Part shown: piece by piece, positions 2,388 to 19,021 of the stretch
How the letters are laid out: each line of letters opens with the position of its first letter
How positions within the stretch are numbered: the stretch's first letter is position 1
IMG/VR virus record: IMGVR_UViG_3300020474_000149
Coordinates: 1-21,314 of that record
Strand: one strand, 5' to 3'
DNA from: a virus
Length of the DNA stretch: 21,314 bases
The notes under the pieces: model-generated
What the model was told of the DNA's origin: nothing
What the model saw: only the letters and a program-made list of their open reading frames with translations
Databases searched by the model: none
Position numbers and translations under genes: made by a program

Positions 2388-3443
2388 TTAGCCGATGGAT
2401 GGTGCTTTAGAAGTAGCAAGATCCAAGGGGAAGTTATGGGCATTACGCTCATGCATGACTTCCATACCGAGACCAGCTCGATTCAGTACGTCTGCCCAAG
2501 TGTTGATAACATGCCCTTGGCGATCAGTGATGGATTGATTGAAGTTGAATCCATTGAGGTTGAACGCCATGGTGCTGACGCCGAGGGCGGTAAACCAGAT
2601 ACCCACGACTGGCCACGCAGCAAGGAAGAAGTGGAGACTGCGGCTGTTATTAAAAGAAGCATACTGAAAAATAAGACGACCAAAATATCCATGTGCAGCT
2701 ACGATGTTATACGTCTCTTCTTCCTGTCCAAATTTATACCCATTGTTAAGAGAAACCGTTTCGGTAGTCTCCCTAACCAAGGAACTGGTGACAAGACTGC
2801 CGTGCATAGCAGAGAACAAAGCCCCACCAAATACGCCGGCAACACCCAACATATGGAAAGGATGCATAAGGATATTATGTTCAGCCTGAAAGACGAGCAT
2901 GTAGTTGAACGTACCGGAAATGCCAAGAGGCATGCCGTCTGAAAAACTACCTTGCCCAAACGGGTAGACAAGGAAAACTGCGGTTGCAGCAGCAACTGGA
3001 GCCGAGTAGGCAACATATATCCAGGGCCTCATTCCCAATCGATAGCTGAGTTCCCACTCCCTACCCATGTAGCAGAAGACGCCAATGAGGAAGTGAAACA
3101 CGACGAGTTGGTAAGGGCCGCCGTTATAAAGCCATTCGTCCAGCGAACCGGCTTCCCACACTGGGTACATATGTAGCCCAATTGCGTTCGAGCTGGGTAC
3201 GACAGCTCCTGAGATAATGTTATTTCCGTACAGGAGAGATCCTGCAACTGGTTCGCGAATGCCATCGATGTCTACGGGTGGTGCGCCAATGAAGGCAATA
3301 ATGAAACAGGTAGTAGCAGCTAGCAGGGTTGGAATCATAAGGACACCAAACCAGCCAACATAAAGTCGGTTGTTTGTAGAAGTAACCCATGAGCAGAACT
3401 CATCCCAGTTACTTCGTTGTTGTCTATTTAGAACAGTTGTCAT
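2388..3443 (-). CDS. psbA: Photosystem II reaction centre protein D1
   Basis: This is a complete 351-residue D1 protein with no intron. It keeps the reaction-centre core, for example [18 protein letters not shown], the [15 protein letters not shown] region, the plastoquinone-binding loop with [19 protein letters not shown], and the C-terminal [14 protein letters not shown] that carries ligands of the manganese cluster. Numbering is one less than usual because of a one-residue N-terminal deletion. The residue equivalent to 130 is Glu (GREWEL), the form linked to high-light D1. The extension after the processing site is only eight residues. In infected cells phage D1 replaces the fast-turning-over host D1 in thylakoids, keeping light energy flowing for dNTP synthesis. 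Hli is encoded just upstream. No strong ribosome binding site is visible. Confidence 0.99.
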
Positions 3444-3760: not shown

Positions 3761-3930
3761 TACCAGACTCCAGGGATAATTTGTCCGCTCACAAAATAAC
3801 TGCCAAGAGCAGCAATGATGCCAAGCATAGCGAGCCTGCCATTAAGTCTTTCTGCACGTTCATTGTGAGTTTCAGTAATTTCTTGCATGTACATAGTGGG
3901 TTCGGTGGGCCAGATTTGAGTGTCGTTCAT
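3760..3930 (-). CDS. hli: High-light-inducible protein (Hli)
   Basis: The 56-residue product holds the chlorophyll-binding signature ERLNGRLAMLG within one predicted transmembrane helix (roughly residues 27-47), as in single-helix Hli/Scp proteins of the CAB superfamily. It is thought to bind chlorophyll and carotenoid and to protect photosystem II, matching the psbA gene downstream. The ATG at 3930 overlaps the stop of the beta-barrel-like gene as ATGA. A longer form from a GTG at 3942 is possible, but the ATG overlap is the better start. The protein is short, like other phage Hlis. Confidence 0.95.
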   Translation of the reverse strand: MNDTQIWPTEPTMYMQEITETHNERAERLNGRLAMLGIIAALGSYFVSGQIIPGVW

Positions 3931-4274
3931 CAGAACGTCCACTTGACACCTGCCTTGGTGCCATAAGAAGCTTCATCATCGCCAGTAATAAAAGACAGCT
4001 CGCCGTACAGGCTTACATCTTCCGACAGGGGAACTGCGCCACCAACTTTCCCAGACAATTCCAGCTCAGCATCGCCACCATCAGGCATCACTGCAGCAGG
4101 ACCGCCCTGGATATACCAGCCATCACCTTCATACCCCACGTGATTATCAATCACAGTTCCGCCGTACTCACTACCAGCAAAACCGCTGTTAGCCTCAACG
4201 TTTACATATGGGCCTGCGAGTACAGGGTTTGCAGCCAGCAATGCGGCAGGGAGGATTGCAAAAATTTTTTTCAT
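3930..4274 (-). CDS. Secreted small beta-barrel-like outer membrane protein
   Basis: The 114-residue product begins with a classical signal peptide: MKK, a hydrophobic core to about residue 18, then a likely Sec cleavage after VLA at 20. The mature part of about 94 residues shows some six alternating strands rich in Gly and aromatic residues, and it ends in GVKWTF. A terminal Phe after an alternating strand is the usual BAM-complex signal for outer membrane proteins. The mature chain is shorter than known eight-strand barrels such as OmpX, so it may oligomerise or be a reduced barrel. It is translationally coupled to hli. Its role (receptor masking, exclusion of other phages, or virion part) is unknown. 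Confidence 0.75.
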   Translation of the reverse strand: MKKIFAILPAALLAANPVLAGPYVNVEANSGFAGSEYGGTVIDNHVGYEGDGWYIQGGPAAVMPDGGDAELELSGKVGGAVPLSEDVSLYGELSFITGDDEASYGTKAGVKWTF

Positions 4275-7138: not shown

Positions 7139-7319
7139 CGTTTTGCTCCATGTATTGTATTACAAACTCAACAACATTGCGTTGTCCAGCTCTGTACATA
7201 ATCTTTTCTATTGAGTCTTCAGGTGAGGCGTTGTAGAGTGGAAAAGTATCTTCTAATGTACTGACAAGACCTCGGGATTGCATCCCATATGTCTCAAGCG
7301 TACTGAGGGAGATTGACAT
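7131..7319 (-). CDS. Small conserved phage protein (62 aa)
   Basis: Starting from the ATG at 7319 the product is MSISLSTLETYGMQSRGLVS and continues with EDTFPLYNASPEDSIEKIMY and VVEFVIQYME. It is probably helical. The position, between ribonucleotide reductase and head genes, corresponds to the T7 region of genes 6.5-7. The ATG overlaps the end of nrdB by 26 bases; a longer form to 7388 would be almost fully inside nrdB and is less likely. Its stop overlaps the next start. I cannot assign a function, but the frame is well structured and fills an otherwise empty gap. Confidence 0.68.
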   Translation of the reverse strand: MSISLSTLETYGMQSRGLVSTLEDTFPLYNASPEDSIEKIMYRAGQRNVVEFVIQYMEQNDG

Positions 7320-8013
7320 TACTATGCTCGAAGAATGCTGGCATCCGTGCTGACTTGGTGGCGGAAAGCTCGGGAGCTTTTCCTTCATACATCAAGCGAT
7401 CACTGGAATCCAGCCAAAATTTTTTGTCTAAATATTTATCGGTGTTGCTACCCAAAGGTTGCATCACCCAGTTAATAGTTGCCTTCCGAAGCTTGTCAAG
7501 GCTAGGAGAGATATCAAGCCCCAGCTCCCGACAAACAATACTATTGGAAGCAACGTGAATTTGTTCATCTCTAGAAATATCTGCACTTACGGTTCGCATT
7601 CCTGCGTCACCATTAAAGCGAAAGAATGGTAGAAGAACGAAGAAAATTGCACGCTCGGCAACCATCGCTTTGAGGATCGTATGATCCGGATGCGCTGTCC
7701 AAGCATCACGTAGCCGTAACGCTTCAGCCTCAGCCTTTTGATCAACCCCGTAAGCATTGGCAATGTAACCAAGTGCCAGGTCATGGTTTTCTTCGTCCCT
7801 AATGTTTGACTCCAGAAGTTCCCTCGATAGGTACGGTACGTCGGTATCCAATCCATCACGGATAAAATCTCCCACAGGCAGTTCCATGTGTCGTAAGGCA
7901 AGGGCACGTAGCAATGTTTCGTGTGCTCCTCCCTTGCATGTACCAGCAGTTGTTTGTACTGGTGTCCATTTCCTCTTTCGAGTCAGTAGTTTTTGATAAG
8001 GGTTCATTCTCAT
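7294..8013 (-). CDS. nrdB: Class I ribonucleotide reductase small (radical) subunit
   Basis: The 239-residue product has the ferritin-like R2 ligand set: Glu in MELP, ExxH in EENH, Glu in AERAIFF and ExxH in DEQIH, with family-like spacing. Normally a Tyr stands four residues after the first His; here that position is Leu (ENHDLAL). The tyrosyl radical of class Ia/Ib is therefore not possible, and a metal-only (for example Mn/Mn or Mn/Fe) or other cofactor is implied. The C-terminus keeps a Tyr (LPQYA), as R2 tails use for radical transfer. It is much shorter than E. coli NrdB (376). The ATG at 8013 overlaps the nrdA stop as ATGA. It pairs with NrdA to make dNTPs for phage replication. Confidence 0.88.
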   Translation of the reverse strand: MRMNPYQKLLTRKRKWTPVQTTAGTCKGGAHETLLRALALRHMELPVGDFIRDGLDTDVPYLSRELLESNIRDEENHDLALGYIANAYGVDQKAEAEALRLRDAWTAHPDHTILKAMVAERAIFFVLLPFFRFNGDAGMRTVSADISRDEQIHVASNSIVCRELGLDISPSLDKLRKATINWVMQPLGSNTDKYLDKKFWLDSSDRLMYEGKAPELSATKSARMPAFFEHSNVNLPQYA

Positions 8014-9380
8014 TCTTGACAATCACATTGTGGTTCATCTTTAAGTAGGTCTTCCAAATAACTGTCTACATCAGCTTCATCTAGTGCAGCATATGCACTT
8101 GACTTGTCTTGGGTATCGCCCATGACTTGCAGACTGTAGTAAAGACTTGTTTGCGGGGACCGTAGCCACTCTTCGACGAACTCATTGTCGTAGGTCACAA
8201 CATCACTCCAAGAGTTAAAGCTGTATCCATGAAGAAGCCCTGTGTTGTCAAACATCACCATCAGATTGTCAGCTACACGCTTGTACGCATCCCAGCCAAC
8301 TTCTGAAGCAATCTCAACATCACCATATTCATATGTTTGAACACCGAACGTACCGCTATCACGGTCTACCGTCCGGCTAATGGGCGGAGCAATCTCTGGT
8401 GTACATGTATAGCCATCAAGGTCTTTAGACCTGTAGCTGCAGCTTGCGGTAGGGGCGATTGCAAAAGCCCTATCCATTTTGTTTACTCTGGCAATGTTTG
8501 CCGCTGCATTGATGCCAAGTTTGAATTGAACAGCTAGTTCATAAGCAGCTGTTCGGATAACCTTTCCAGTATTAACTGCCTCTAGTGCTTCTCCAAATTG
8601 GTTGTACGTTATGCCGTACCGCCGTAGGAGATTTGCGAGTCCGAGTACTCCCAATCCGACCTGTCGGTCTGTCTCAGATGGGAGGTATTCCCCTGAATCA
8701 CCAACGCCAGTTCGACCATGGAGTTCGCACAGCTGGGACATCCCTTCAATAAAAGCTCGCGGCACGTCGTCAAATTCACAGGCACCGAGAGAGACATGCT
8801 GTAGCAAGCAGGTTCCTCTACTGGGCAGATACACTTCAAGACAAACGTTCCCTCTGATGCGTTTTCCATTCTTGTCATACTTAACTTTGTTTAGCCAGAT
8901 GTCACCTGATTTAATTCCGTGCAGGAGTTCTTCCTTAAACGTACACCCCTCCCACCATTCGGGGGTGATGTTGATGCATCGTTTGACCCAAGGTAGTTCG
9001 GCTCTAGGAGTAGTAATAAACTCAAGAGCATCAGGGTGGGATAAATCAATATGACAAACAATCGCGCCGTTTTTATAAACACCACCGCGCCTGAGTATTT
9101 CATTTAAGGTCGAGTAGATTTTTGCGAAAGATACTGGACCTGATGCAACAAGTCCCTTTCCATTTTCTGCTCCTTTGGGTCGCAGTTTCGACAGGTGGAT
9201 CGCGCAGCCTGCTCCATATCGCAGAGCATGGCTAGCAAACTTCCAGCTTGCTTCGATTCCATTTGGTCCTTCCATTTCGTCTTCAACGACGAACACAGTG
9301 CATGAAACTGGAAGCCGTGACTCTGGATTGTCGAGCCACGATTGAACACGTCCAGTACGTGAGATTAGCGAGGTGGTCAT
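8010..9380 (-). CDS. nrdA: Class I ribonucleotide reductase large (catalytic) subunit, compact form
   Basis: The 456-residue protein has the reductase active site: an early Cys (LPVSCTVFV), the radical site NVCLE (N-x-C-x-E) and the second redox Cys in GTCLLQ. Near the C-terminus a Tyr-Tyr pair (TSLYYS) and two closing cysteines (CDCQE) are the class I signatures for radical transfer and re-reduction. The N-terminal ATP-cone is absent and the protein is far shorter than E. coli NrdA (761), so dATP feedback at the activity site should be missing. Compact cyanophage enzymes of this kind were once labelled class II; the Tyr pair and the adjacent small subunit argue for class I. Confidence 0.93.
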   Translation of the reverse strand: MTTSLISRTGRVQSWLDNPESRLPVSCTVFVVEDEMEGPNGIEASWKFASHALRYGAGCAIHLSKLRPKGAENGKGLVASGPVSFAKIYSTLNEILRRGGVYKNGAIVCHIDLSHPDALEFITTPRAELPWVKRCINITPEWWEGCTFKEELLHGIKSGDIWLNKVKYDKNGKRIRGNVCLEVYLPSRGTCLLQHVSLGACEFDDVPRAFIEGMSQLCELHGRTGVGDSGEYLPSETDRQVGLGVLGLANLLRRYGITYNQFGEALEAVNTGKVIRTAAYELAVQFKLGINAAANIARVNKMDRAFAIAPTASCSYRSKDLDGYTCTPEIAPPISRTVDRDSGTFGVQTYEYGDVEIASEVGWDAYKRVADNLMVMFDNTGLLHGYSFNSWSDVVTYDNEFVEEWLRSPQTSLYYSLQVMGDTQDKSSAYAALDEADVDSYLEDLLKDEPQCDCQE

Positions 9381-9383
9381 TTA

Positions 9384-9749
9384 TTAAATAAGATCAGTAA
9401 GTGTTGGTTCTTTGTAGTTTGGTCCTTTCAGAACCTTGCCATCAGCTCTGTAGATAGGCTTACCGTCTTCTCCAAGCTTTGACATATTTGATTCGTGGAT
9501 ACGATGCATTGCTTCATCGAGATCCCATTCTTGACTAGCTGCCATTTGATAACAGACATACACCAAATCAGCTAGTTCTTTTAGCTGTTCTGTTTCTTCT
9601 TTGAAGTGGTATGCCTCATGGAACTCACTCCATTCTTCATCGATCAATGCTTTTTGTACTGATCTCTGATGGATCCCTGTCGTCAGAGAGTAAGCTGCTC
9701 GGAATTGCTCCGCTTGATCCATTAGGGATCTGTGAATGTAGGAGTTCAT
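9384..9749 (-). CDS. MazG-like nucleotide pyrophosphohydrolase
   Basis: From the ATG at 9749 the 121-residue product contains the all-alpha NTP pyrophosphatase signature: EExxE in DEEWSEF and ExxD in KELADLVYV, which bind Mg2+. The tail GKPIYRADGKVLKGPNYKEP is typical of phage members of this family. It probably hydrolyses (d)NTPs or an alarmone-like nucleotide in the cytoplasm, and its neighbours DUF3310 and ribonucleotide reductase are also nucleotide genes. The frame is open upstream to 9842, but earlier ATGs give a poor N-terminus. The start lies inside the DUF3310 gene, giving a 113-base overlap. Confidence 0.85.
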   Translation of the reverse strand: MNSYIHRSLMDQAEQFRAAYSLTTGIHQRSVQKALIDEEWSEFHEAYHFKEETEQLKELADLVYVCYQMAASQEWDLDEAMHRIHESNMSKLGEDGKPIYRADGKVLKGPNYKEPTLTDLI

Positions 9750-9927
9750 TTTCAAGATAGTGGATAGCCTTTTTAAGGTCGTTAGCCTTTGTGTTATTAC
9801 TTTTGAAACCGGCTCTGCAAATATATTTAATAGCACAGCCAAGGTGATAGTTTAGTTCCCAGTCTCTGATTGCATCCCAGCATTCGATTGATCCTCGGGT
9901 GTAATAGTCGGGTGAATAATGGGCCAT
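9637..9927 (-). CDS. DUF3310 family protein (T7 gp1.7-related family)
   Basis: The 96-residue product begins MAHYSPDYYTRGSIECWDAI and has LNYHLGCAIKYICRAGFKSN followed by DLKKAIHYLENEL, the full DUF3310 pattern. I recall that T7 gp1.7, a nucleotide kinase, belongs to the same family, so a role in nucleotide metabolism is plausible but not proven. The last 30 residues (from about residue 66) are Ser/Pro-rich, lie beyond the domain, and are the part overlapped by the MazG-like gene. The start overlaps the preceding 64-residue ORF by 76 bases. Confidence 0.83.
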   Translation of the reverse strand: MAHYSPDYYTRGSIECWDAIRDWELNYHLGCAIKYICRAGFKSNNTKANDLKKAIHYLENELLHSQIPNGSSGAIPSSLLSDDRDPSEISTKSIDR

Positions 9928-10046: not shown

Positions 10047-10800
10047 CTTGAACTCCTGCTCCATCGTTAACTTTGTAACCGGGGGAGGGGGTCCAAGGTA
10101 TGACTCGTTTGTCTGTTGCGTCATAGTCATCGCATGTAAGTATTCGTGCCAGGCGTGCGTTCATCAAAGCAACCTCTTCGCCTAGTTCTTTCTTTGCAAA
10201 GGCTTTAACAACTGTTTCCCAGCTGTATCCATCCTCTTCAAATAATGCAACAGCACGTTTGATTCCAATGCCTGGCACTCCGCTGTAACCATCAGTTTGG
10301 TCTCCAGCTAGTGTTTGTATAAGGTGCCATTTCGCACCCTCTTCTGGTGTGATGTGAAGTGTCTCTTCCATGGTGAAAACATGGCCAGGGATTTGACGCA
10401 TGTCTTTGTCTGGACTAACAATAATGTTGCCAGGATGTTCGGTTGCGTAGATACCCATAGCATCATCAGCTTCTAATTCAGGAAGTCGAATAACCTCATA
10501 CTGTTTGGTCAACTCAGATATAACGCGCCTGTATCCACAGGGCTTCTTACGATTTCGATGACCCTTGTAATCTGGGTAAATTTTTTTCCTGAAATTCTTA
10601 GAGTCACTAAAGAACAAGATAGGTTCGGGTATATCCCAAATGAAAGCTTGTTTGATCTTTGACAACTCTCTAATTACGTGCCCATAAGCCTCACTGAACT
10701 TACTGACTACTGTGATTACATCATCGCCCCAATCAATTTCATCCTCAGCTCCGGCACACGCTTTATAAACAATATAGTCAGCGTCAACCAGTAGTTTCAT
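10030..10800 (-). CDS. 5'-3' exonuclease (T7 gp6-like, FEN family)
   Basis: The 256-residue product shows the 5' nuclease fold: the N-terminal acidic site VDADYIVYKA, the conserved LEADDAMGI and IIVSPDKDMRQI acidic motifs, and the helix-three-turn-helix with GDQTDGYSGVPGIGIKRA that binds DNA. In T7 the gp6 exonuclease degrades host DNA to nucleotides, removes primers and aids recombination. The ATG at 10800 overlaps the polymerase stop as ATGA; the TTG three bases earlier is a less likely start. It lies just after the polymerase, as in T7 gene order 5-6. Confidence 0.93.
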   Translation of the reverse strand: MKLLVDADYIVYKACAGAEDEIDWGDDVITVVSKFSEAYGHVIRELSKIKQAFIWDIPEPILFFSDSKNFRKKIYPDYKGHRNRKKPCGYRRVISELTKQYEVIRLPELEADDAMGIYATEHPGNIIVSPDKDMRQIPGHVFTMEETLHITPEEGAKWHLIQTLAGDQTDGYSGVPGIGIKRAVALFEEDGYSWETVVKAFAKKELGEEVALMNARLARILTCDDYDATDKRVIPWTPSPGYKVNDGAGVQDAKVG

Positions 10801-12080
10801 CAATGCACCTCCGACCAGTCTTTCCCTTGCTTCGCCTCAGCTGCGATTGGCACTCTGAGGTTGTAGTACTCTCCAGCTTCTGCAGCTGCAAGTACCAGGG
10901 ATGCTGATAAGTCGTCTGCGTGGTCTGGGTGGCATTCAAATTGTAATTCGTCATGTATAAATGCGAGCTGTGATGCACACAGCTTCAGTTGTTTAATATG
11001 ATTGTGAACGATAACCATTTGCCGTTTTGCTACGATACCAGCCGATGACTGGAGCAAATAGTTCAATGCTTTGTGTGGACTATCTACTTTGATGTGTCGT
11101 CCATCTATAGCCTTAATATAGCCCTCCTTACTCTTCTCTTTGATTGCCTCCAGAAGTTCCGCAAGTCCATCAATAGCAGAAACGAAAGCTTCTCTAATTT
11201 CCTTACCCTTCTTTTTAGCCTGTCCACTTGTTAGAAGGGGGTCATAGGAATATCCAATTTTTTCGTTGCCTGCCCCATAGATGAAGGCATAGCTGATGGT
11301 TTTAATAGCCCGTCTACTGACTCCAACCTTGTCTGCATTGACTTGATGAATGTCACCGTTGAGTAGAGTTTCGGTAAAAGAATTGCTCCAGCGGCCAAGA
11401 TAGTGGCCGAGCATACGAAGCTCGATACCGCTAAGGTCGGCACCAACCATGATTTGACCTGGCGTAGCTTGGAATAGCTTTCTGAATTCTGGGTCACTTT
11501 TTGTCTGTCCTAAATTCGGTTTACGGTGTGCACATCGATGTGTGTTTGTAGCAACTGAACAGTGGTGATGTATTCGGCTAGCAGTCGTACATAGCCTGAG
11601 CCATGCGTTGGTGCCTTCGGAGATCATCCCCAAGCTCTTCGTAATATCGAGACATTTCAGAAACTCCAAAGCAATCGACGGTCCACCTGATGCAGCCGTC
11701 TCCTTCAGAACAATCTCGTCGATAATCGGCTTCCCAGTAGCTGTCAGCTGTGTCGGCTTCCAGCCATGAAATGTTTGCAGGATCCATGAAATATGATCTC
11801 GTGATGTTGGATTAGTTTCTTTTAGTCTGGTAAATACGGAGCCTTCGACATACCCAGATGTTTTGTTATTTCGTTTAGGAGTAAAGTCTGATCCTGCAAC
11901 GAAAGGGTGCCTGTTGCGTAATAGTTCAACAGTTTCTTCAAGCTCTTTTCTGAGAGTAGATGCAAGTTTCCATGCAGCACGTTGGTCAAAGTACCATCCA
12001 TGTAGTTCTTGTTCAGTTAATATTTGAGCTACGTCGTGCTCAAGCCGTACCCACTCAGGTATTTGTGGAAGTGGTCGCAT
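10800..12080 (-). CDS. Family A DNA polymerase, polymerase domain (T7 gp5 C-terminal part)
   Basis: The 426-residue product holds palm and fingers motifs: motif A in GADLSGIELRMLGHYL (catalytic Asp), motif B RRAIKTISYAFIYG (Arg, Lys, Tyr, Tyr-Gly of the O helix) and motif C IHDELQ. The residue at the E. coli Phe762 position is Tyr, as in T7. It lacks a proofreading domain, which lies in the overlapping upstream frame; relative to it this frame is -1. The ATG at 12080 (MRPLPQIPEW) gives a 52-base overlap; an ATG at 12137 is also in frame. T7 gp5 is one 704-residue protein, so the split is notable. The EWVRLEHDVAQIL segment corresponds to where T7 gp5 resumes after its exonuclease domain. Confidence 0.93.
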   Translation of the reverse strand: MRPLPQIPEWVRLEHDVAQILTEQELHGWYFDQRAAWKLASTLRKELEETVELLRNRHPFVAGSDFTPKRNNKTSGYVEGSVFTRLKETNPTSRDHISWILQTFHGWKPTQLTATGKPIIDEIVLKETAASGGPSIALEFLKCLDITKSLGMISEGTNAWLRLCTTASRIHHHCSVATNTHRCAHRKPNLGQTKSDPEFRKLFQATPGQIMVGADLSGIELRMLGHYLGRWSNSFTETLLNGDIHQVNADKVGVSRRAIKTISYAFIYGAGNEKIGYSYDPLLTSGQAKKKGKEIREAFVSAIDGLAELLEAIKEKSKEGYIKAIDGRHIKVDSPHKALNYLLQSSAGIVAKRQMVIVHNHIKQLKLCASQLAFIHDELQFECHPDHADDLSASLVLAAAEAGEYYNLRVPIAAEAKQGKDWSEVH

Positions 12081-12556
12081 AATTTGGTGGTTACTTTTAC
12101 GTCTTGACAGCAATACGTTTCCATTTCTGGAGACCATTCTTGCCAGTCTGTTGTCTTACCGAACTCACCTTTGTATTCACCTAGCCGATACCCATAAGCT
12201 TCTAAGCTATGCCTGCCGTACATTTGTAGCGGCATGTTGGCAATGCTCCTCTTCTTATCAATATCCAAGATGTCTGTGTGATACAGACGTGATAAGAGCA
12301 ATGTATCTAAAACTAGAGCTTCAGGATTAAACCAAGGATACAGCTTCTTGATTACTGGAATGTCGTATCCAATCACATTGTGCCCGACAATTACATCAGC
12401 ATCTTCTAGACGTTGTACACCCCGAACAATCGGCTCTTCATTGCCTTGATCGTTGTACACAATGGTCTTGTCAGTATCGCTGTCATAAATAACAAGGCAA
12501 TGGATCTTGGTAAGATCATTTAGCAGTCCGTCCGTCTCCAGATCGAATACCAGCAT
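12029..12556 (-). CDS. DNA polymerase 3'-5' exonuclease domain as separate ORF
   Basis: The 175-residue product matches the N-terminal proofreading domain of T7 gp5: motif Exo I MLVFDLETDG, Exo II VIVGHNVIGYDIPVI, and Exo III YCCQDVKVTTKL (the usual Tyr-x(3)-Asp spacing). These acidic residues bind two metal ions. The frame then ends after 11 more residues past HFHKYL. The polymerase domain continues in the -1 frame in the same region. Either the two chains assemble, a frameshift joins them, or a base is wrong in this assembly. The ATG at 12556 begins exactly at Exo I, so there is no missing N-terminus. Confidence 0.9.
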   Translation of the reverse strand: MLVFDLETDGLLNDLTKIHCLVIYDSDTDKTIVYNDQGNEEPIVRGVQRLEDADVIVGHNVIGYDIPVIKKLYPWFNPEALVLDTLLLSRLYHTDILDIDKKRSIANMPLQMYGRHSLEAYGYRLGEYKGEFGKTTDWQEWSPEMETYCCQDVKVTTKLCDHFHKYLSGYGLSTT

Positions 12557-17734: not shown

Positions 17735-17750
17735 GCTAGACGCAACTAGA
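17735..17750. repeat. Near-identical direct repeat, right copy
   Basis: GCTAGACGCAACTAGA is the partner of 17507-17521. It overlaps the end of the integrase gene and the palindrome around its stop codon, so integrase binding here could also affect its own message. Confidence 0.65.
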
Positions 17751-17756
17751 GTTGCG
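17741..17756 (-). repeat. Inverted repeat at the integrase stop codon
   Basis: CGCAACT and AGTTGCG form a perfect seven-pair inverted repeat separated by two bases, overlapping the integrase stop. It lacks a U-tract, so it is not a clear terminator. It overlaps the right direct repeat and may be part of the attachment complex. Confidence 0.55.
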
Positions 17757-18669
17757 ACATCATGCGGTGATCTTGGTCGTTGTTCTGGCTGTAGTAACCC
17801 TCCGTCACGGTGATAGAGGAATGACCAGCCCAGCCCTTGACCTTCATGGATGGCACACCGTCATCCAGTGCCCATGTGATAAAAGAGTTTCGCAACGTCT
17901 TCCACATGTGACGATCTGTGACAGTTCGATCCTCACGGTTCATGAGGTTCAGCACCCGTTTCCATCTGCGATGCAGGTTCCATTGGTTAGGAAACTCATC
18001 AAAGACAATGTCATGGAACCCACGATCTAAGCCTGAGCGGGCTTTGAGTAGGGGTACAAGACGTGGATGGATGGGCACCTCGCGGTAGTTCCGTCCTTTG
18101 GTACGTGTTGCAGATGTACCACCTACAAGCAAGAGGTTGCCTCGCCAGTCGATGTCATCCACATGCAAGCGTCGGCATTCAGCCTGACGTAGCCCTGAGT
18201 AGGCGCTCAGCTCGATGGCTTCTGCCATTGCATCGTCGCCACGTTCACGGGCTATTTGCACCAACCGATCAACCTGTTCCTTTGTATAGAAAGCTGGACG
18301 ACGGCGCTCAGTTTCTCTTAGCTTCTCAATGACAGGAATGCCTCTGATGTAGCCACTACGGGCACACAAAGACAGAACTTTCTTGACAGTTGAGATGGCA
18401 CGGTTCAGGGTTGCAGGTGTGTTGCCTGTGACCTCTTTGATTTCAGCAATGGTTTCATGCAGAAAATCATGGTCAATCATTGTGAGTGGTGGATCACCCC
18501 AATGCTCTTTTAGCTTTTGAAAGTTGCGTATGTTGTTCTGATTACCAGATGGCAATTCAGACTCACGCCACGTTGGCAATGTCTGCAACGTGTGGTGGAA
18601 ACCCTCAGAGAATTTAGTGATCTTTTCGGGTTTCACGTATTCCGTCGCCGGAATGATTGTGAAGTCCAT
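17746..18669 (-). CDS. int: Tyrosine recombinase (phage integrase)
   Basis: The 307-residue protein has an N-terminal SAM-like core-binding part (to about 110) and a catalytic domain. Visible residues are Arg in YSGLRQAEC, Lys in TRTKGRNYREVPI, Arg in KTLRNSF, His in GWAGHSSITVTEGYY and the Tyr in that last segment. The first His of the usual HxxR box is Lys here. It should recombine the adjacent attP with a host tRNA-Leu. The start overlaps the end of the MarR-like gene by 56 bases, linking their expression. Its ribosome binding site is weak. Confidence 0.95.
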   Translation of the reverse strand: MDFTIIPATEYVKPEKITKFSEGFHHTLQTLPTWRESELPSGNQNNIRNFQKLKEHWGDPPLTMIDHDFLHETIAEIKEVTGNTPATLNRAISTVKKVLSLCARSGYIRGIPVIEKLRETERRRPAFYTKEQVDRLVQIARERGDDAMAEAIELSAYSGLRQAECRRLHVDDIDWRGNLLLVGGTSATRTKGRNYREVPIHPRLVPLLKARSGLDRGFHDIVFDEFPNQWNLHRRWKRVLNLMNREDRTVTDRHMWKTLRNSFITWALDDGVPSMKVKGWAGHSSITVTEGYYSQNNDQDHRMMSQL

Positions 18670-19021
18670 TTAATTCATTAAGTAAGTCGTTTTTAATACG
18701 AACACCTAACGGCGTCAGTCGTAGTTGTAATCTACGTCCGTGGAAAGGGTCTTCCTCCTTTGTGATTAGGTTGAGTCCTGCGACCTTGTACCGATTTTGT
18801 GCACTCAGGTAATCAGTGTTACGACTGCCAGATGCAACGCTGAGTCCTAGGTCTTGCTCCATCTTTGCCTTGTGGCATTTGTCATGAGAGCAGACATATA
18901 GGAATACTTGCAACGCTTGCAATGGCATGTTTCCGTCTGGTGACAAGGCGCGAACAAGTTCAATCGCCTTAAATACCAGGAGGGAATCTTCGTCTGTTAC
19001 TGCACCCCTGAGTGGGTCCAT
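18614..19021 (-). CDS. MarR-like winged-helix regulator
   Basis: The 135-residue product has helices, a helix-turn-helix region around KMEQDLGLSVASGSRNTDYL, and a wing with DPFHGRRLQLRLTPLG, the MarR-type pattern 'D..GRR..L.LT..G'. It could control integrase or early transcription, given its overlap with int and the leader features upstream. The Gly/His-rich C-terminus (HNHSGDGIRETRKDH) is where it overlaps the integrase gene, so that part is less constrained. The ligand or DNA target is unknown. The ATG at 19021 follows GGGGAGG at 19039-19045, with an unusually long 17-base spacing occupied by a small hairpin. Confidence 0.75.
   Translation of the reverse strand: MDPLRGAVTDEDSLLVFKAIELVRALSPDGNMPLQALQVFLYVCSHDKCHKAKMEQDLGLSVASGSRNTDYLSAQNRYKVAGLNLITKEEDPFHGRRLQLRLTPLGVRIKNDLLNELNGLHNHSGDGIRETRKDH

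Follow-up and report, generated by a model that had tools for sequence, protein, structure and literature searches.

The window, that is, the whole stretch of DNA analysed here, is a 21,314-base virus record from IMG/VR that derives from a T7-like cyanophage. Its genes are ordered on the minus strand as regulator and integrase, RNA polymerase, primase/helicase, DNA polymerase and exonuclease, followed by a MazG-like gene, the α and β genes of a ribonucleotide reductase (RNR), portal, scaffold, psbA and capsid; the names of the RNA polymerase and the primase/helicase were given from sequence and synteny, without a family scan. The closest records, those of Synechococcus podoviruses and of uncultured Mediterranean phages, match the window with a mean identity of 75–76% over at most about half of its length. 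The MazG-like gene, upstream of α, belongs to the same nucleotide-metabolism block, and phage S-CBP4 has a pyrophosphohydrolase in the same place.

Some other genes of the window deserve mention. The DNA polymerase is split (10800-12556, minus strand), with an exonuclease domain (12029-12556) and a polymerase domain (10800-12137) that lie in different frames and overlap; the S-TIP37 record carries a note that its polymerase is possibly translated in two frames. Between scaffold and psbA, positions 3930-4274 (minus strand) encode a 114-aa protein with a signal-peptide-like start (phrog_417, function not assigned). At 17746-19021 (minus strand) the integrase (phrog_1, E 6.1e-37) adjoins a small regulator of transcription (phrog_9665); the phage group is mostly lytic.

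Features of the reductase genes are collected in Table 1. The β ORF spans 7294-8022 on the minus strand and offers two initiation codons: the ATG at 8013-8011, which yields 239 aa and is the likely start, and an inner ATG at 8007, which yields 237 aa and from which the β residues are numbered throughout. The annotation of P-SSP7 shows an identical 4-base overlap of α and β, and through this overlap the two genes are likely to be translationally coupled.

Table 1. Coordinates of the reductase genes, their neighbour and key residues in the window
Feature	Position	Strand	Evidence
MazG-like nucleotide pyrophosphohydrolase	9384-9842	-	phrog_671, E 2.1e-34; PF01503, E 8.5e-10
Class Ø RNR catalytic subunit α, 456 aa	8010-9380	-	7urg_A, phmmer E 1.8e-240, 801 bits
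α C27	9300-9302	-	
α C180	8841-8843	-	
α C191	8808-8810	-	
α Y414-Y415	8136-8141	-	
α C452	8025-8027	-	
α C454	8019-8021	-	
ATGA overlap of α stop (8012-8010) and β start (8013-8011)	8010-8013	-	Sequence
Class Ø ferritin-like radical-generating subunit β	7294-8013	-	phrog_6799, E 1.3e-134; ends NLPQYA
β Trp14, aligned to radical-path Trp48 of E. coli R2	7966-7968	-	230/230 rows with residue
β Glu42, metal ligand 1	7882-7884	-	226/226 homologues; P-SSP7 E42 in PMC6370689 Table 3
β position 46, four after ligand 1 (Gly46)	7870-7872	-	Homologue alignment
β Glu72 and His75, metal ligands (ExxH)	7783-7794	-	Homologue counts; NrdB/NrdF alignment
β Leu79, site of radical Tyr122 of E. coli R2	7771-7773	-	Homologue counts; NrdB/NrdF alignment
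β Glu118, metal ligand	7654-7656	-	226/226; NrdB/NrdF alignment
β Asp147 (radical path, D237-like) with metal ligands Glu148 and His151	7555-7569	-	Each 226/226
β Tyr236, penultimate residue, Tyr356-like inter-subunit radical relay	7300-7302	-	228/228 rows with residue; PMC9531940

Judged by its sequence, the α product is the orthologue of the α subunit of Synechococcus phage S-CBP4 (7urg), and the active-site cysteines C27, C180 and C191 were assigned by correspondence to that solved structure. In the 189 α relatives that were aligned, these cysteines, N178, E182, the tyrosine dyad (YY) and the two cysteines of the tail are conserved almost without exception, and the dyad is kept in 255 of 256 αs. 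The C-terminal pair has the form C-D-C (452-454); among relatives the tail is CXC in 124 cases and CXXC in 131. The RNR barrel PF02867 is the only Pfam domain above the cut-off, and the same scan found no ATP-cone. An earlier note on this DNA had described just such a subunit, with a Tyr-Tyr pair and a C-terminal Cys pair and without the cone, and had argued that the enzyme escapes inhibition by dATP. Since the cone is missing, overall activity would indeed probably not be shut off by dATP. The specificity site is retained; the structure of the S-CBP4 α contains bound TTP (PMC9531940).

In β, the ligand series Glu, ExxH, Glu, ExxH that the note had read corresponds to E42, E72xxH75, E118 and E148xxH151, and the Leu that it had placed four residues past the first His is L79. 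When the window β was aligned blind by MAFFT with the NrdB and NrdF of E. coli, to which it is 16–19% identical, L79 fell on Y122 and W14 on W48, and E72, H75, E118, D147, E148 and H151 were invariant in the three proteins; the note had named an alignment that places a Tyr at the radical site as a refutation, and no Tyr appeared there. Relatives were then drawn from IMG/VR, GTDB contigs and phage records, making a set of 230 distinct βs with identities down to 38%. At the radical position 205 of the 230 have Leu and the other 25 have Phe; none has Tyr. All 226 near-complete distinct homologues have E42, E118, D147, E148 and H151, while E72 and H75 are present in all 230 rows with a residue at those sites; Asp71, a second-sphere residue directly before the ExxH motif, is likewise found in 230/230. 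Such conservation of the ligands is not due to chance. Burnim et al. had described ‘Phe or Leu’ at the radical site, which the present counts confirm with more sequences.

Orthologues of β are found in 55 phage records at identities of at least 50%, and at 36% in Microcystis phage Mic1, a freshwater phage in which α is absent within 3.5 kb and the genes around β are on the other strand. In both deposited S-CBP4 genomes the β gene runs in two frames near its 3′ end (1204-1915 of locus L341, NC_048183.1, and 2504-3216 of locus L100, NC_025464.1), so that the annotated products, of 193 and 205 aa, respectively, lack the relay tyrosine; the split is either a sequencing error or real. The β of P-RSP2 (about 2501-3207 of locus L103, HQ332139.1) is also in two frames, with the break in mid-gene, and that record annotates neither α nor β.

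An AlphaFold2 model of the window β, built from 42 homologues, has a mean pLDDT of 91.5 and a pTM of 0.87, with low confidence in the tail from residue 226 onward. It predicts a four-helix core (29-53, 59-86, 110-132 and 135-161) in which each helix bears one ligand-carrying element. In a Foldseek search against the PDB, R2 proteins were seen throughout the best 50 matches listed. The first was the Mn/Fe R2c of Chlamydia (4d8f, E 6.7e-4), with the remaining R2 subclasses close behind; its edge is marginal and the TM-scores are modest (0.45–0.63), so the subclass is not readable from this search. A profile search of the PDB with β gave only non-significant matches (Chlamydia R2c 2ani, E 0.12), and at the curated cut-off of PF00268 the window β was unmatched, with four of 13 relatives matching weakly (best E 6.4e-4). 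The matches from a single-sequence phmmer search (Izumo, E 0.02) were rejected as due to chance. Literature searches turned up no paper for the Francisella R2 structure 9dws.

As its α is orthologous to 7urg, the window enzyme belongs to the group called ‘Cyano SP’ by Harrison et al. (2019) and class Ø by Burnim et al. (2022). Every sequence feature of class Ø examined here is present in the window pair: an α within the range of ∼410–470 aa that is orthologous to that of S-CBP4 and has no ATP-cone, a tail with a CXC or CXXC pair together with the YY dyad, and, directly downstream, a β of 237–239 aa with L79 and a PQYA end, where a single residue follows the relay Tyr. In the β tree the window sits among P-SSP7-type phages. 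We thus read the pair as a P-SSP7-like cyanopodovirus RNR of class Ø (Cyano SP) whose β works by a metal-dependent mechanism in general (probability about 0.9). The class I label of the earlier note agrees with the six metal ligands and the predicted R2 fold of β; α, on the other hand, may lie outside class I proper, the class Ø α forming in the whole-family tree a clade separate from both class I and class II (PMC9531940).

Both relatives have been described. Harrison et al. reassigned the RNR of P-SSP7, until then annotated as class II, to class I, identified its β, reported the absence of the Tyr, tabulated the pattern of its metal site and put forward a new subclass, which in their β trees fell outside class Ic with an unstable placement (PMC6370689). 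Like the window, P-SSP7 has the α-β order with the 4-base overlap, the YY dyad, no radical Tyr and a class II mislabel; the ligands E/E/H/E/E/H and second-sphere D/D are identical (PMC6370689), and the difference is in sequence alone, the βs being ∼78% identical. Burnim et al. solved the S-CBP4 α, named class Ø and described the Leu/Phe at the radical site, the short β tail and the CXC motif (PMC9531940; PDB 7urg). S-CBP4 shares with the window an orthologous α with no ATP-cone and a CXC tail, and a short, ferritin-like β with one residue past the relay Tyr and Leu/Phe at the radical position; no substantial difference was found, with βs ∼80% identical. The lack of the Tyr and of the ATP-cone, the CXC ending of α, the shortening of β and the wrong class II labels had all been published in 2019 and 2022, a fact that the earlier note missed. 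It had observed correctly an enzyme already described; its warning about mislabelling is borne out by public records that read ‘ribonucleotide reductase class II’, ‘nrdJ’ and ‘hypothetical protein’, and its inference of manganese is a plausible and reasonable one.

The outer part of the radical path is complete, but the usual place next to the metals has no residue that could be oxidised; the simplest mechanism would then be one with a metal-centred oxidant. The dinuclear metal site within the short ferritin-like bundle of β would react with O2 or a reduced oxygen species, and the oxidising equivalent would stay on the metals, the radical tyrosine being absent. From there the hole would pass by way of H75, D147 and W14 to Y236, cross to Y415/Y414 of α and reach C180, whose thiyl radical would reduce ribonucleotides with the use of C27/C191; the C452/C454 pair would then re-reduce the active site.

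The Cyano SP group is, in the words of a 2026 preprint, ‘yet to be biochemically characterized’, and a metal-centred, manganese-containing cofactor is our best guess. Ligand 1 is Asp in classes Ia/Ib and Glu in Ic/Id; four residues past the first His, classes Ia, Ib and Ie have a radical or DOPA Tyr and the window has Leu79. The earlier note had cited classes Ic, Id and Ie together as R2 proteins without this Tyr. That is true of Ic, where alone it is absent outright, but class Id conserves the Tyr unused and class Ie modifies it to DOPA (PMC6370689, PMC8463856). The class Ic R2 (Chlamydia trachomatis NrdB, Mn(IV)/Fe(III)) combines Phe at the radical site with Glu at ligand 1, and the window has an equally redox-inert residue with the same Glu (L79 and E42). 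Because the Leu/Glu pair resembles this Phe/Glu pair, an Mn/Fe cofactor is preferred, as a first choice at roughly even odds. Class Ø βs differ from class Ic R2 in being ∼100 residues shorter, in lacking the C-terminal α-binding tail, in an identity of only ∼16% and in having Asp71 before ExxH where class Ic has Glu.

A dimanganese cofactor of the class Id kind (Flavobacterium johnsoniae, Mn2 IV/III), which would be assembled with superoxide, is a tentative second choice. The ligand-1 Glu of the window fits it as well, and being common to Ic and Id does not separate Mn/Fe from Mn2; NrdI was not recognised among the window ORFs examined. The residue four past ligand 1 is Lys in 84 of 226 relatives, with the spacing of E67/K71 in F. 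johnsoniae, where Lys71 is proposed to attract superoxide, and an invariant Pro two residues past ligand 1 could favour a local helix break as in class Id. However, the window lineage has Gly at this position (139/226), the Tyr of class Id is missing, and helix 1, which is unwound in metal-loaded class Id, is predicted to be unbroken in AlphaFold2 models of both the Gly type and a Lys type. With Gly for Lys and helix 1 continuous in models of both lineages, we found no structural support for an Id-like site in the window phage. An Fe2 or other cofactor, the third choice, is unlikely.

The Lys βs make one clade in the β tree (support 96/99). All αs of the Lys lineage end in CXXC, where the tail is readable, and CXC is confined to αs paired with Gly/Ala βs. 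As a lead only, Lys would mark one well-supported half of class Ø that excludes the window lineage, a possible addition to the published picture. It is quite unlikely, though conceivable, that class Ø harbours two metal-only chemistries: the Lys half (Syn5, SS120-1 and S-CBS4 types, with CXXC tails) would use Id-like Mn2 with superoxide, and the Gly half (P-SSP7 type and the window phage) an undescribed Leu/Glu site, e.g. Mn/Fe with the second-sphere Asp.

It is improbable that the radical resides not on the metals but on another protein residue near them, such as the Tyr six past the first His (Y81). This Tyr is conserved in 222 of the 230 βs, but Phe (six) or Leu (two) replaces it in the others; at 100 degrees per residue in the modelled helix 59-86 it would point ∼180 degrees away from E72, with L79 on the metal face, and this predicted geometry led us to set it aside. 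The least probable reading is that the enzyme is of class II, dependent on adenosylcobalamin, and that the small gene downstream has no connection with it: the class II labels of public records, the best NCBIfam match of α (NrdJ_Z, at 71 bits far below the cut-off of 400) and the greater homology of α with class II reported by Burnim et al. (PMC9531940) are outweighed by the YY dyad, on which a finger-loop cysteine of 7urg stacks at the would-be cobalamin site (PMC9531940), and by the adjacent R2-like β with all six ligands and the predicted fold, and we rejected it, in agreement with the earlier note, which had taken the enzyme to be β-dependent.

The benefit in iron-poor ocean water that the note had attached to manganese is unsupported; the 2026 preprint does find Cyano SP anti-correlated with modelled iron, and explains this by the distribution of the hosts and by the metal pools inside cells. 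Our comparison of 230 βs, with no Tyr, the radical path kept and the Lys/Gly split, leaves the published picture unchanged. Class Ø is reported to be the most minimal RNR architecture, and its carriers are abundant marine cyanophages whose hosts have B12 enzymes. With regard to the cofactor of this class, the comparison leaves a metal-centred oxidant as the narrower guess and picks out two lineages, those with Lys and with Gly beside ligand 1.
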